Source of the DNA: Arthrobacter zhangbolii
Lineage (GTDB): Bacteria > Actinomycetota > Actinomycetes > Actinomycetales > Micrococcaceae
Direction: 5' to 3'
Length of the DNA: 64,000 bases
Assembly: GCF_022869865.1 (NCBI RefSeq)
Contig: NZ_CP094984.1
Coordinates: 868,001-932,000 of the forward strand
Part shown: piece by piece, positions 40,751 through 64,000 of the stretch
Position numbering within the stretch: position 1 is the stretch's first letter
How the letters are laid out: each line of letters begins with the position of its first letter
The notes under the pieces: model-generated
Database searches by the model: none
Seen by the model: only the letters and a program-made list of their open reading frames with translations
Told to the model about the DNA's origin: nothing
Position numbers and translations under genes: made by a program

Positions 40751-40768
40751 CCAGGCAGAGGCGGCAGT

Positions 40769-40797
40769 TTGGTCTTACGGCCAACCTCGTGTAGGCT
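40769..40797 (+). promoter_or_regulatory. Promoter of first csp gene
   Basis: TTGGTC (40769-40774) and TAGGCT (40792-40797) are spaced by 17 bases. Transcription would begin near 40804, at the GCAGTTG that is also found at the same distance from the second csp promoter, which supports both calls. Confidence 0.65.
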
Positions 40798-40802
40798 GAA
40801 AC

Positions 40803-40944
40803 GCAGTTGTTGTGTTGCGCATTTTGTATTTCAAGCGGCGAAACCCACACGGGCTAGCCGCTTTTCTGTAAAAGCGGTAAAGGAACACCGCGACTGAAAC
40901 CTCCCGAAAGTCGGGAAGTGTTTCAATCCAGAAGGAATATTAAA
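40803..40944 (+). promoter_or_regulatory. Structured 5' leader RNA of first csp gene
   Basis: The leader is about 140 bases. Hairpin 1 pairs AAGCGGC (40833-40839) with GCCGCTT (40857-40863), has an inner CCC/GGG stem (40844-40846 and 40851-40853) and runs into TTTT, so it looks like an intrinsic terminator. A small stem GCGGT/ACCGC follows at 40873-40890. Hairpin 2 pairs GAAAC (40896-40900) with GTTTC (40920-40924) and CCCGA (40903-40907) with TCGGG (40911-40915). The GAAGGA ribosome-binding site comes 7 bases later. The same two hairpins recur before the second csp gene with changed loop and stem lengths. A role in cold-responsive control is inferred. Confidence 0.7.
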
Positions 40945-41148
40945 ATGGCTACAGGTACCGTGAAATGGTTCAACTCCGAAAAGGGCTTCGGCTTCATTGA
41001 GCCCGACGACGGCAGCGCCGACGTCTTCGCTCACTACTCCGCTATCAACTCCAACGGCTACAAGTCGCTGGACGAGAACCAGAAGGTTAGCTTCGACACC
41101 GAGCAGGGCCCCAAGGGCCCGCAGGCCTCGAACATCCAGGCCCTCTAA
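40945..41148 (+). CDS. cspA: Cold-shock protein, first copy
   Basis: The 67-residue single cold-shock domain has both RNA-binding motifs: [10 protein letters not shown] (RNP1) and DVFAHYSAI (RNP2). It binds single-stranded RNA and DNA as an RNA chaperone. The ATG follows GAAGGAAT. It differs from the second copy at only 8 of 67 residues. It has its own promoter, long leader and terminator, so it is a monocistronic unit. Confidence 0.97.
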
Positions 41149-41189
41149 TTTCTTAGAGACTTTGTAACGGCTTCAGCGCCGTAACAGTA

Positions 41190-41221
41190 AAAAGCAGGAC
41201 GGGTTCGCCCGTCCTGCTTTT
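41190..41221 (+). terminator. Intrinsic terminator after first csp gene
   Basis: A 14-base perfect stem pairs AAAAGCAGGACGGG (41190-41203) with CCCGTCCTGCTTTT (41208-41221) around a TTCG tetraloop. It is 41 bases after the stop. The core GCAGGACGGG is shared with the terminator of the second csp gene. Confidence 0.95.
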
Positions 41222-41310
41222 GCGTTAACCGGTGCACCCGCCGAGACCCGGTTGTAGCCGGATCCCCGGGGTTGAGTCCTTCCCCTCGCAGCGAAGGGAA
41301 GGACACAAAC

Positions 41311-43125
41311 CTAGTCGTGAATCCGCACGGCAGCCTCGCGCAGGTACTGTTCCACGCGGGTGTAGGCGTCCTGGGTCAGGGCCTTCCAAAGGTTCATGCT
41401 GAGGATTGGATCCTTGGCCGCCAGTTCATCAATGGAATCGGCGGTCAGGACCATAACCTTCAGCGGCCCTGATGCCTTGACCGTGGTTTCCTGCCGCTTG
41501 TCCTCGCCCATGGCCATTTCACCAAACGTCATGCCCGGCCCCAGCGTGGCAAGCTTCACCCTGCTGCCGTCCGGCCCGGGCATGGAGGTGGTGATATGAC
41601 CCGAGACGATAAAGAACACGCCTCCGAAACGCTGGCCCACGCGCCGGACAACGTCGCCGTCGTCGTAGGTGCGCTCCTCCATCATGTCCTGCAGCAGCCC
41701 GGCTTCCTCCGGCCGCAGGGGACTCAGGGCAGGCGAATCCGCCGGATTGATGCTGGCCGGCAGCACCAGCTCGGAGCCATGCCCCTCCAGCAGCCTGTTC
41801 TCGCACCATTCAACGGCGGCGGAACGGGTGGTGAAGGAGGCGGTGTCCCGGCCAAGCTCCTGCAGCGCATCGGTAACCGATCCCTCCACGTCCACCAGGG
41901 CCAGTTCACGGCCGTCACGGCGGAGCATGTCCTCCGCCTCGGCAATCAGCCGGATGGCGACGTCGGAGACTTCATCAACACTGCGCAGATCGGCGACGAC
42001 AATTTCCACCTCGTCCGGCAGGTCGCTGAGGGCGCGGACCATGGACTCCGCCCCGGCGAAAAGAAGATCGCCGTTGAGCTCGATAACCTGCACCCGGTGC
42101 CCGTGTCCGGCAAGGATTTCGGCCGCCTCATCAGTGCGGCGGATGCCGGAGGGAGTGGCCGTAATGTCGTAAATAGCCCGGATGGCCGAACGGCCGGTTC
42201 GGGCGGCCCGGACAAAATGGAGGCCCAGATCAGAGGACAGCCGCTGGCTGACGGCAACGCCGCGCACGCTGTTGCCGTGCTCGTCCAGGGGAGGGGAGTA
42301 GACGGCCAGGCCCACCTGCCCGGGCAGGACAGCCAGGATGCCTCCGGCCACACCTGATTTGGCGGGCATGCCCACGTTGCTGATCCAGGAGCCGGCGTCG
42401 TCGTACATGCCGCAGGTGGTCATGACCGAGAGGACGCGTTCAACGGAGAAAAGGTCCAGCACTTCATCCCCGGAGAGGGGATGCCTGCCGCCATTGGCGA
42501 GCGTCGCTGCCATCAGGGCCAGGTCCCGGGCATTGACCAGCACGGAGCACTGCCGGAAATAGTCCTCGATGATGGGTTTGGGATCGGATTCAATAATGCC
42601 GAAGGAGCGCAGCAGGTACGCCAGCGCAGTGTTGCGGTGCCCGGATTTCAGTTCGGAAGCGTAGATCCGCTCGCTGACGTCCAGGCTCCGGCCGGCGAAG
42701 GCGGAATAGGTATCCAGGATCCGTTTGAACCGGGACCTGCCGCCGGACCCTTTGACCAGGGACGTTGCGGTAAGGGCGCCGGCATTGATCATGGCATTGG
42801 CGGGCCGGCCGGTACCTTCAGCCAGGGAAATCTCGTTGAACGAGTCGCCGGAAGGTTCCACGTCCACTTTTTCGTCCACCGCGTCCATGCCCAGATCAGA
42901 CAGGGCCAGCCCGTAGGTGAACGGTTTGGAAATGGATTGGATGCTGAACTCTTCGCGGGTGTCGCCCACCTCATAGACGTACCCGTCGGCGGTAGCCAGC
43001 GCTATGCCGAAGTGGTCGGGGTCAACGTTGGCCATGGCCGGAATGGCGCTGTACGGATGGCCGTCTTTCATGCCCGCTATCTCGGCGTGGATCCGGCGCA
43101 GGTAGTTCTCAATCGGGGAGTCCAT
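41311..43125 (-). CDS. glsA: Glutaminase fused to STAS and cyclic-nucleotide-binding domains
   Basis: The 604-residue protein is about twice the length of a plain glutaminase. Residues 20-310 form the beta-lactamase-like glutaminase domain with the SxxK nucleophile Ser64/Lys67 in SIQSISKPF and CGMYDDAGSW near 238. Residues about 340-440 read as a STAS domain (VIELNGDLLFAG, ADLRSVDEVSDVA). Residues about 465-595 read as a Crp-type cyclic-nucleotide-binding domain (GGVFFIVSGHI, FGEMAMGEDKRQETTV). It converts glutamine to glutamate and ammonia, probably under allosteric control. The phosphate-binding cassette is altered from the usual R-A-A/T form, so cyclic nucleotide binding is uncertain. It lies on the opposite strand between the two csp units. 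Confidence 0.9.
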   Translation of the reverse strand: MDSPIENYLRRIHAEIAGMKDGHPYSAIPAMANVDPDHFGIALATADGYVYEVGDTREEFSIQSISKPFTYGLALSDLGMDAVDEKVDVEPSGDSFNEISLAEGTGRPANAMINAGALTATSLVKGSGGRSRFKRILDTYSAFAGRSLDVSERIYASELKSGHRNTALAYLLRSFGIIESDPKPIIEDYFRQCSVLVNARDLALMAATLANGGRHPLSGDEVLDLFSVERVLSVMTTCGMYDDAGSWISNVGMPAKSGVAGGILAVLPGQVGLAVYSPPLDEHGNSVRGVAVSQRLSSDLGLHFVRAARTGRSAIRAIYDITATPSGIRRTDEAAEILAGHGHRVQVIELNGDLLFAGAESMVRALSDLPDEVEIVVADLRSVDEVSDVAIRLIAEAEDMLRRDGRELALVDVEGSVTDALQELGRDTASFTTRSAAVEWCENRLLEGHGSELVLPASINPADSPALSPLRPEEAGLLQDMMEERTYDDGDVVRRVGQRFGGVFFIVSGHITTSMPGPDGSRVKLATLGPGMTFGEMAMGEDKRQETTVKASGPLKVMVLTADSIDELAAKDPILSMNLWKALTQDAYTRVEQYLREAAVRIHD

Positions 43126-43152
43126 ACTTCCACCCTATGGGGTCACGGAGGG

Positions 43153-43181
43153 GTGACTCTCCCGGGGGTGCGTTATATACT
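43153..43181 (+). promoter_or_regulatory. Promoter of second csp gene
   Basis: GTGACT (43153-43158) and TATACT (43176-43181) are spaced by 17 bases, directly upstream of the GCAGTTG (43186) that marks the presumed transcript start. The -10 element is stronger than in the first copy. It lies 28 bases from the divergent glutaminase start. Confidence 0.7.
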
Positions 43182-43185
43182 TTGA

Positions 43186-43332
43186 GCAGTTGCGGTGTTG
43201 TGCAATGTGTATGTTCAAGCGGCGGAACCCAGATCCAGGGCGAGCCGCTTTTTCTGTACTTGTCCAAAAAGGCAGCGCGACGTGAAACTCCCCGAAGGTC
43301 GGGGCAGGTTTCGTTAAGAAGGATGATTAAAA
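43186..43332 (+). promoter_or_regulatory. Structured 5' leader RNA of second csp gene
   Basis: The leader of about 146 bases matches the first csp leader in order and position. Hairpin 1 pairs AAGCGGC (43217-43223) with GCCGCTT (43244-43250), has an inner CCC/GGG stem (43228-43230 and 43238-43240) and ends in TTTTT. Hairpin 2 pairs GAAAC (43284-43288) with GTTTC (43308-43312) and CCCCGA (43290-43295) with TCGGGG (43299-43304), one base pair longer than in copy one. AAGAAGGAT then provides the ribosome-binding site. Confidence 0.7.
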
Positions 43333-43536
43333 ATGGCAACAGGTACCGTGAAATGGTTCAACGCTGAAAAGGGCTTCGGCTTCATCGAGCCCGACGACGG
43401 CAGTGCCGATGTTTTCGCTCACTACTCCGCTATCAACGCCAGTGGCTACCGGTCGCTCGAAGAAAACCAGAAGGTTAGCTTCGATACCGAGCAGGGTCCG
43501 AAGGGCCCGCAGGCGGTTAACATCCAGGTCGTCTAA
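43333..43536 (+). CDS. cspA: Cold-shock protein, second copy
   Basis: This 67-residue cold-shock domain protein carries the same RNP1 ([10 protein letters not shown]) and RNP2 (DVFAHYSAI) motifs as the first copy and differs at 8 positions, mostly conservative (Lys/Arg, Asp/Glu, Ser/Ala) plus the last two residues. It is monocistronic with its own promoter, leader and terminator. Redundant or temperature-divided roles are possible. Confidence 0.97.
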
Positions 43537-62466: not shown

Positions 62467-64000
62467 TCAGAACAGCGAGTAGCGCTGGGTCAGGGGCAGG
62501 TCGGAAACGGGGGCCGGTTCAATGACCTGCCCGTCGATGCTGACCATAAATGTTTCCGGGTTCACCCGGATGTCCGGCAGCGCCGTGTTGTTGGGCAGTG
62601 ACGCCTTGGTGACGTTCCGGGTGGAGCGGATGGGGGTCAGGGAACGGACCAGGCCCAGCCTGTCGGCCAATCCGTCCTCGAGGGCCGCCGGTGCCACAAA
62701 GGAGGTGGACAGGTGCGGTGCCGACGACGCCGTCCCGGCCAGTGCCTCGCGCATCCAGACCGGCTGCGGCGTGGGCAGCGTGGCATTTGGATCACCCATC
62801 TGCCCGGCCACAATGGCGCCGCCCTTGATCACCAGGGCCGGCCGGATCCCGAAGAACGCCGGTTCCCAGAGCACCAGGTCCGCCATTTTTCCGGTCTCGA
62901 TGGATCCCACCTCGTGGTCAATGCCGTGCGCCACCGCGGGGCAGATGGTGTATTTGGCAATGTACCGGCGCACCCTTTCGTTATCTGCCGGCAGCGCGGA
63001 TTCCGCCGCACCCATGTAGTCCTTCATCACGTGGGCCACCTGCCAGGTGCGGGTGATGGTTTCCCCGATCCTGCCCATGGCCTGGGCATCCGAGGAAGTG
63101 ATGGACATGGCGCCCAGATCCTGCAGCACGTCCTCGGCCATCATGGTGTTGGCCCGGATCCGGGACTCGGCAAAGGCCAGGTCCTCGGGGATCCTCGGGT
63201 TCAGATGGTGGCAGACCATCAGCATGTCCAGGTGCTCGGCCACGGTATTGACCGTGAAGGGCAGTGTGGGGTTGGTGGAGGCCGGCAGCACATTCGCGGC
63301 GGCCGCTACCGTAATAATGTCCGGGGCATGGCCGCCGCCGGCACCCTCGGCATGGAAGACGTGGATGCCCCGGCCCTTGATGGCGGCAAGGGTGTCCTGG
63401 ACGTAACCGGCCTCGTTGAGCGAGTCCGCGTGCAGTGCCACCTGGACACCCCACCGGTCCGCAGCGGTCAGCGCGGCGTCGATGGCGGCCGGCGTCGAGC
63501 CCCAGTCCTCGTGGACCTTGTACCCGGCGGCGCCCGCGAGTGCCTGTTCCCCGAGGGCCGCCTGGCTGACGGTGTTGCCCTTGCCGTAGAGCAGGAAGTT
63601 CATGGGCAGGTGATCCAGCGCCCGGTGCATAACCTGCAGGTTCCAGGCTCCGGGGGTCACGGTGGTGGCCTTGGATCCTTCCGCCGGGCCGGTTCCGCCA
63701 CCGCCCACCGTGGTGATGCCGGAGGCCAGCGCCTCGCGCAGCGCGTCGGTGCCCAGCAGGTGTACATGCGTGTCGATGCCGCCGGCGGTGAGAATGCGTC
63801 CCTCTCCGGACACCACCTCGGTGCCCGGACCAATCACCAGGGCCGGATGGACGTTGTCCATGATGTCCGGATTGCCGGACTTCCCGATGCCGGCAATCCG
63901 GCCCTGCCGCACACCTACATCGGCGCGGACAATGCCCCAGTGGTCCACAATCACCACGTTGGTAATGATCAGGTCCGGGGCTCCCTCTGCCGAGGTGCGG
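62467..64000 (-). CDS. ureC: Urease alpha subunit, N-terminus cut by window edge
   Basis: The frame runs open past 64000, so the first 60 or so residues are outside the window; visible sequence begins [29 protein letters not shown]. The metal ligands are present: HVH near the start, the carbamylated Lys in [36 protein letters not shown], the Asp in TSSDAQAMG and the flap [13 protein letters not shown] with its Cys. It hydrolyses urea to ammonia and carbamate with two nickel ions. The C-terminus LTQRYSLF is normal. Confidence 0.95.

Follow-up and report, generated by a model that had tools for sequence, protein, structure and literature searches.

A conserved leader RNA family upstream of csp genes in Micrococcales and its candidate pairing with the Shine-Dalgarno region

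The described systems closest to the two cold-shock protein (Csp; gene csp) leaders that we report here from a 64,000-nucleotide (nt) stretch of Arthrobacter zhangbolii (assembly GCF_022869865.1, contig NZ_CP094984.1, positions 868,001 to 932,000; hereafter the window) are the 5' untranslated regions (5'-UTRs) of csp mRNAs in other bacteria. The E. coli cspA 5'-UTR (Rfam family RF01766) is likewise a long structured csp leader, for which parts of PMC9947658 report a cold form and a 37-degree form with a partly occluded Shine-Dalgarno (SD) sequence; the cold form arises below 20 °C, and mRNA that is cooled after folding keeps the 37-degree form. For the Listeria cspA thermoswitch, whose leader sequence was not compared with ours, disruption of a hairpin exposes the SD in the cold, according to sections of PMC8155936 that also mention thermoswitches of S. 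aureus cspB and cspC and an earlier proposal of an autoregulatory leader switch for Csps. In B. subtilis, a point mutation in or near one cold shock box raised cspC expression (PMC8307031, in part). The cold shock boxes of B. subtilis cspB and cspC resemble our leaders in being conserved csp 5'-UTR elements; the sequences were not compared. Actino-pnp, which we take to be the leader RNA of an actinobacterial RNA-metabolism gene, and the other actinobacterial motifs of a 2010 list of 104 candidate RNAs differ in belonging to another gene than csp. The term 'csp' occurs 0 times in the main text of that list (PMC2864571). The literature searched, which covered few subscription journals and included portions of PMC2965389, PMC4046766, PMC8079986, PMC8914203, and PMC6429828, described no Micrococcales csp leader and held little on the control of cold-shock proteins in Actinobacteria.

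Judged by sequence comparison, the leaders of the window belong to a family in Micrococcales that lies directly upstream of csp genes. The csp leader RNA is conserved, and Rfam has no separate entry for it. We regard it as reasonably likely that these leaders are cis-regulatory 5'-UTRs of Micrococcales csp mRNAs that would act as a translational switch by occlusion of the SD. Such a switch would probably be autoregulatory or cold-linked.

The two leaders and their homologues

The genome of the window (3,464,001 bases) yielded two leader matches and five csp matches. Both leaders precede csp genes, csp1 and csp2, which flank a glutaminase gene on the opposite strand. The leaders are 142 nt (csp1) and 147 nt (csp2) long, and both open with GCAGTTG. 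They share the hairpin P2, AAGCGGC/GCCGCTT with an inner CCC/GGG stem, which has the loop ACAC (4 nt) in csp1 and AGATCCA (7 nt) in csp2 and is followed by a U-tail of four (csp1) or five (csp2) residues. The hairpin P3 reads GAAAC..CCCGA/TCGGG..GTTTC in csp1 and GAAAC..CCCCGA/TCGGGG..GTTTC in csp2; 3' of it, both leaders have AGAAGGA and then the ATG at 40945 or 43333. All these elements, from the GCAGTTG start to the ribosome-binding site, had been located by a first-pass annotation of the sequence and were seen again at the same positions. Two long-range pairings were absent from that annotation. The first, P1, joins the 5' end (GUUGYWGUG) to CACCGYGAC before P3; the second, P4, pairs the segment right after P2, which is the U-tract in Arthrobacter, with the SD and the bases immediately preceding it. 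The predicted fold of the csp1 leader was better than 200 of 200 dinucleotide shuffles (z -3.7). That of the csp2 leader was less striking on its own (z -1.5), with 15 of 200 shuffles as good.

RF01766 was the sole Rfam family to reach its gathering score on the csp region of the window, with 85.2 bits for the csp1 mRNA at a cut-off of 78. This match extends from the late leader to past the stop codon and is rich in non-standard pairs in its 5' part, and the score appears, as read from the alignment, to come mainly from the coding sequence. The csp1 leader alone (40760-40944) gave no RF01766 match up to E 10, and the csp2 mRNA scored 57.7 bits, under the cut-off. Among 20 csp loci with the leader, only csp1 of the window passed this cut-off, and none of the 19 others did. 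The leader-alone null, the coding-sequence score and the 0/19 other loci speak against RF01766 as an explanation of the leaders. Moreover, the E. coli helices are unlike those of the Micrococcales leader. This agrees with the first-pass annotation, which set the E. coli thermosensor apart and named no described RNA family with this layout.

Homologues were sought with two covariance models, R1 built from 47 leaders and the broader R2 from 71. Both contain P1, P2, and P3 without P4, so that pair counts on the alignments A1-A4 lean to P1-P3. All five genome surveys were run with Infernal's stricter filters. With R1, the leader was found in 55 of 149 genomes of the taxonomic family (E 1e-3), in 56 of 297 genomes of the order (E 0.01; at least two are false, G193 = L251 and G233 = L250), and in nine of 296 genomes of the class; R2 raised the latter two counts to 65/297 and 12/296. 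Such a search had been suggested in the first-pass annotation, and it indeed recovered leaders before csp from further genera of the taxonomic family as well as from families of the order besides this one. Matches came from Arthrobacter, Pseudarthrobacter, Paenarthrobacter, Cellulosimicrobium, Cellulomonas, Actinotalea, Cryobacterium, Frigoribacterium, Diaminobutyricibacter, and Ruania (several of them in the training set), and the distribution across the order is patchy. Within the genus, both csp copies carry the leader in all 25 genomes, with the second copies L039, L040, and L050, missed by the P3 pattern of our script, assigned by eye. Of the 24 other genomes of the genus, 23 have the two copies 2.3-5.0 kb apart and one has them 0.6 kb apart. 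At locus L025 (genome G010, a genus member), the two csp genes are arranged in tandem with a spacing of about 570 nt, and a leader precedes each of them.

The linkage to csp was assessed on 146 matches. Thirty-six of them stem from the window or were reached via the csp protein and hence precede csp by construction. The remaining 110 (107 distinct sequences) were obtained from loci reached via the model, and the following count covers these fetched loci: 106 of the 110 directly precede a csp open reading frame, 105 according to the script and L227 by eye. The other four are the second copy in L162 and L229, which are masked copies of a single locus, and the false matches L250 and L251. Among all 146 matches, only these low-scoring two (23.7 and 22.1 bits, respectively) did not precede csp. 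R2 added 11 order genomes to those found with R1; the match precedes csp in ten of them and does not in L294. Since L295 repeats the training locus L091, the held-out count is nine of ten, with four of the nine from one genus. Of nine weak matches examined from the class surveys, four precede csp (L267, L269, L272, and L273) and five do not. L272 comes from the same order; the signals outside the order are weak and comprise three csp-linked matches (L267, L269, and L273). Several Streptomyces and Nocardioidaceae csp leaders open with a GUUGCA-like sequence; their R2 match was poor or none.

The leader of a third csp copy of the genus (L055:106-300, L057, L058, L059, and L060) is long and of another kind, and the five genus genomes aligned conserve it. 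It carries AGTCTTTGTG near its start, a U-rich stretch, a CTCGCAA/TTGCGAG hairpin, and then AGCTCCT and AGGAACTGC; the L055 copy gave no R2 match up to E 1. Many leaders outside the taxonomic family of the window (L084, L085, L181-L186, and others) have a CACGUCUU-like stretch after the P1 5' strand. GUCUU resembles the binding preference of cold-shock domains, and this stretch may therefore be a Csp site.

Helices P2, P3, and P4 and the terminator question

In an alignment of 71 leaders (A4, fitted to R1), 22 of the 26 modelled P1-P3 pairs showed two-sided changes. The covariation score for P1-P3 was 0.303, compared to 0.059-0.079 for slid versions, and none of 500 shuffles reached it, with the alignment again being fitted to the model. 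Because the alignment leans to the model, we used an alignment-free cognate test, which takes the two strands of a leader as a duplex and compares its energy with that of pairings to strands of other leaders. For this purpose, 134 leaders were thinned to sets of 36 (<75% identity) and 70 (<85% identity). The rows L250, L251, and L220 (short), the masked copies, and a partial copy in L263 were dropped beforehand. A motif score fixed the position of a', the 3' strand of P1, except at up to six loci in the 36-leader run and eight in the 70-leader run, where it was placed by hand. In the set of 70, the halves of P2 gave z -12 and those of P3 z -16. The first-pass annotation had argued for real structure from the two window leaders. 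These are by themselves too alike for much covariation, being identical at 106 of 151 aligned columns; it is the homologues that bear the claim out. The same identity would suit an explanation by chance or promoter conservation only, i.e., near-identical DNA upstream of paralogues. Given the two-sided changes, the cognate tests, and their negative controls, we consider that explanation extremely improbable.

For P4, the 28 nt before the P1 3' strand were tested against the SD plus the 16 nt before it. R1-fitted alignment A4 has P4 out of register, and P4 was assessed alignment-free. Among the 70 leaders, the cognate duplex scored -14.81 compared to -11.27 for mismatched partners (z -10, 0/20000 permutations), and the test remained at z -8 with the SD itself removed. 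Ten leaders of <65% identity still gave z -5.0 (0/5000). A sliding profile of 20-nt windows peaked at z -7 to -10 for windows starting 16-32 nt before a', while off-peak windows gave -0.6 to -2.5, except for -4.7 and -5.2 at and just after a', which probably stem from P3. Controls of the same relatedness gave z +1.0 for the 5' strand with the SD region, -0.1 for the next segment with the SD region, and +2.0 for the post-P2 segment with P3. The SD core lay inside the P4 duplex in 55 of the 70 leaders and in 24 of the 36 of the stricter set. The letters of the helix vary between lineages, as in UUCAAGAGU/ACUCUUGAA (L193), UCAAGAGUUU/AAACUCUUGA (L196), UUUUCUGGAG/CUUCAGAAGG (L176), and CUGAAA/UUUCAG (L071), and a held-out genus (L288-L290) has P4 in new letters, CGUUCUC/GAGAACG. 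In the window, UUCUG/CAGAA, a part of P4, is present in the minimum-energy fold of the csp1 leader. According to the cognate tests, the leader family thus has a pairing that covers the SD, as in the cold thermoswitches of csp mRNAs. P2, P3, and P4 are backed by matched changes directly upstream of csp, which marks the leaders as a new family. Two further candidate helices were considered: P2b (GCGG/CCGY within the P4 loop) gave z +0.4 in the cognate test and is not supported, and an alternative hairpin CCGCUUUU/AAAAGCGG after P2 of csp1 leaders was not seen in csp2 leaders.

P2 with its U-tract could alternatively act as an intrinsic terminator, placed about 60 nt from the RNA start, with read-through rising in the cold or set by Csp, in line with the attenuation proposed in the first-pass annotation. 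The window P2 (-16 kcal/mol) is followed by U4-U5, the csp genes' own 3' terminators likewise end in CUUUU, and some lineages (L091, L198, L237, and L267) have a perfect GC-rich P2 with a U-run. A terminator-like P2, for which we required a hairpin energy of -9 kcal/mol or better and four or more U after the hairpin, occurred in 36 of the 70 non-redundant leaders compared to 24% in shuffles. A GC-rich hairpin running directly into a U-run is therefore not kept family-wide, and the window P2 is weaker than the 3' terminators (-25). Moreover, P4 is kept in the 34 leaders without a terminator-like P2 (z -6.3) as in the 36 with one (z -7.6). P4 being equally strong in both groups, the family keeps the SD pairing, not termination. 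As a family-wide mechanism, attenuation is quite unlikely; it is at most lineage-specific, and possible in those lineages whose P2 combines a perfect GC-rich hairpin with a U-run after it. On the sequence evidence, the U-tract appears better explained as part of the anti-SD strand than as a terminator, and in Arthrobacter it can serve both.

P1, predicted energies, and the proposed switch

The strands of P1 are complementary in nearly all leaders, and P1 gave z -2.3 to -2.8 in the cognate duplex test. There is little evidence of co-change because both strands are conserved, and P1 is, with its weak covariation, less firmly shown than the other helices. Upstream of GTTG, 128 of 135 leaders have a TAnnnT hexamer whose first base is 8-18 nt away, compared to 7 of 135 for a control window shifted upstream by another 20 nt. 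This -10 hexamer just upstream places the P1 5' strand very near the RNA start. P1b (CGUC/GACG), which would extend P1, gave z 0 in the duplex test; among 70 leaders, both strands occurred in 16, neither in 38, only the 3' strand in 13, and only the 5' strand in three, a distribution confounded by lineage. With a and b denoting the 5' strands of P1 and P4, the order of elements is a, P2, b, a', P3, b'. P1 and P4 thus interleave, which implies a pseudoknot or mutually exclusive forms. For the B. subtilis cspB and cspC leaders we know of no such P1/P4 layout.

In the SD-closed form of the proposed switch, P2 would form together with P4 around P3, and P4 would close the ribosome site. In the SD-open form, P1 would form around P2, followed by P3 and a free SD. 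The toggle between the two may be set by the folding order during transcription and by Csp protein on U-rich single strands. The outcome would be csp autoregulation, with more Csp being made when RNA structure is over-stable, as in the cold.

A pure RNA thermometer, in which temperature alone melts or rearranges the SD helix, would have parallels in the csp leaders of E. coli, Listeria, and S. aureus, which parts of PMC9947658 and PMC8155936 report as thermosensors or thermoswitches. We calculated nearest-neighbour ensembles for 36 leaders at 10-45 °C; kinetic trapping and pseudoknots are outside this model. In 89-92% of the leaders, and at every temperature, keeping the 5' strand unpaired gave a lower ensemble energy than keeping the last 26 nt unpaired. 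The gap was larger in the cold (mean -8.7 at 10 °C and -6.4 at 45 °C), so that the predicted ensembles favour the 5'-strand-unpaired state even more at low temperature. A cold-opening thermometer is therefore not predicted from equilibrium energies, and we regard the pure thermometer as unlikely, if still worth considering. Without cold opening at equilibrium, co-transcriptional folding, Csp binding, or a pseudoknot would have to open the SD. The folding behaviour of E. coli cspA mRNA, as given in parts of PMC9947658, is a precedent for a kinetic switch.

Several observations weigh against the proposed switch. The equilibrium energies predict no SD opening in the cold (10-45 °C, 36 leaders), and the SD was on average 40-43% unpaired at every temperature. 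It was predicted to be 3-10% unpaired in csp1 and, with the SD window taken as AAGAAG, two bases upstream, 90-97% unpaired in csp2, the latter speaking against occlusion. The P4 test became weak for four leaders of <60% identity (z -2.2, 214/5000) and three of <55% (z -1.9, 807/5000), and the permutation tests leave some relatedness in. The weakest point for the window locus is the shortness of P4, which in both leaders comprises 7 bp, two of them G.U, and the csp1 duplex (-7.4) is weaker than the non-cognate mean (-13.9). As for P1, 260 of 288 pairs were counted compared to 256.8 expected (364/5000 permutations as high), and 32 of 36 leaders have a conserved mismatch in mid-P1 (A or U against C), seen in the window between 40806-40816 and 40884-40894.

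The leader might instead mainly stabilise the mRNA, with the 5'-end helix P1 and the hairpins acting against RNases and the SD pairing being incidental. The P1 5' strand does stand at the 5' end, and both P1 strands are highly conserved. However, between lineages a change in one P4 strand is matched in the other, which is what selection on SD-region pairing itself would produce, and we find this explanation improbable. A tentative extension of the SD-occlusion switch, itself unlikely though not far-fetched, is that one post-P2 segment acts as terminator U-tract during synthesis and then as anti-SD strand, opposed by the interleaved P1 in a Csp-tipped pseudoknot or bistable fold. If true, one leader would tune its own csp at both transcription and translation, and the paralogues would be set differently, with csp1 predicted closed and csp2 open.

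Features of the locus and implications

The features of the csp region are listed in Table 1. At the edge of the window (63733-64000, + strand), RF02514 (5_ureB_sRNA) scored 53.7 bits, above its cut-off of 40; this match is perhaps due only to urease coding sequence.

Table 1. Coordinates of the two csp leaders, their predicted helices, and adjacent genes in the window (SD, Shine-Dalgarno; aa, amino acids)
Feature	Position	Strand	Basis
-10-like hexamer TAGGCT of csp1	40792..40797	+	sequence; transcript start at about GCAGTTG
csp1 structured leader, whole	40803..40944	+	R1 149 bits (sequence included in model); fold z -3.7
csp1 P1 5' strand GUUGUUGUGUU	40806..40816	+	pairs with 40884-40894 but for one mismatch; z -2.3 to -2.8 among relatives in the cognate test
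csp1 P2 hairpin AAGCGGC/GCCGCUU, inner CCC/GGG	40833..40863	+	predicted fold; halves z -12 (70 leaders); two-sided changes in alignment A4
csp1 P4 5' strand UUUUCUG = terminator-like U-tract, can pair with SD region	40862..40868	+	family-wide cognate test; 7 bp, two G.U
csp1 P1 3' strand AACACCGCGAC	40884..40894	+	cognate tests, alignment
csp1 P3 hairpin, tip CCCGA-AAG-UCGGG	40896..40924	+	sequence; halves z -16 (70 leaders)
csp1 P4 3' strand and SD CAGAAGGA	40929..40936	+	sequence; family-wide cognate test
csp1, 67-aa cold-shock protein	40945..41148	+	PF00313, 7.2e-32
Glutaminase, 604 aa, STAS and cyclic-nucleotide-binding domains, between csp1 and csp2	41311-43125	-	domain search
-10-like hexamer TATACT of csp2	43176..43181	+	sequence
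csp2 structured leader, whole	43186..43332	+	R1 112 bits (in training set); fold z -1.5
csp2 P1 5' strand GUUGCGGUGUUG	43189..43200	+	minimum-energy fold: 43189-43194 paired with 43276-43281
csp2 P2 hairpin, 7-nt inner loop	43217..43250	+	sequence, predicted fold
csp2 P4 5' strand UUUUUCU	43249..43255	+	can pair with AGAAGGA, two G.U; weak at csp2, with the SD region mostly open by prediction
csp2 P1 3' strand CAGCGCGAC	43273..43281	+	predicted fold, sequence
csp2 P3 hairpin	43284..43312	+	sequence, predicted fold
csp2 P4 3' strand and SD AGAAGGA	43317..43323	+	sequence
csp2, 67-aa cold-shock protein	43333..43536	+	PF00313 (cold-shock domain), 1.3e-31

The leader family would add an entry that is missing from Rfam 15. 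Present in dozens of Micrococcales genomes (65 of the 297 sampled) and provided with a named helix that would close the SD, it makes csp control directly testable by a few mutations. The leaders also indicate that a 5'-UTR hairpin with a U-tail need not be an attenuator. Finally, csp mRNAs of distant phyla would solve the same problem via different RNA folds.

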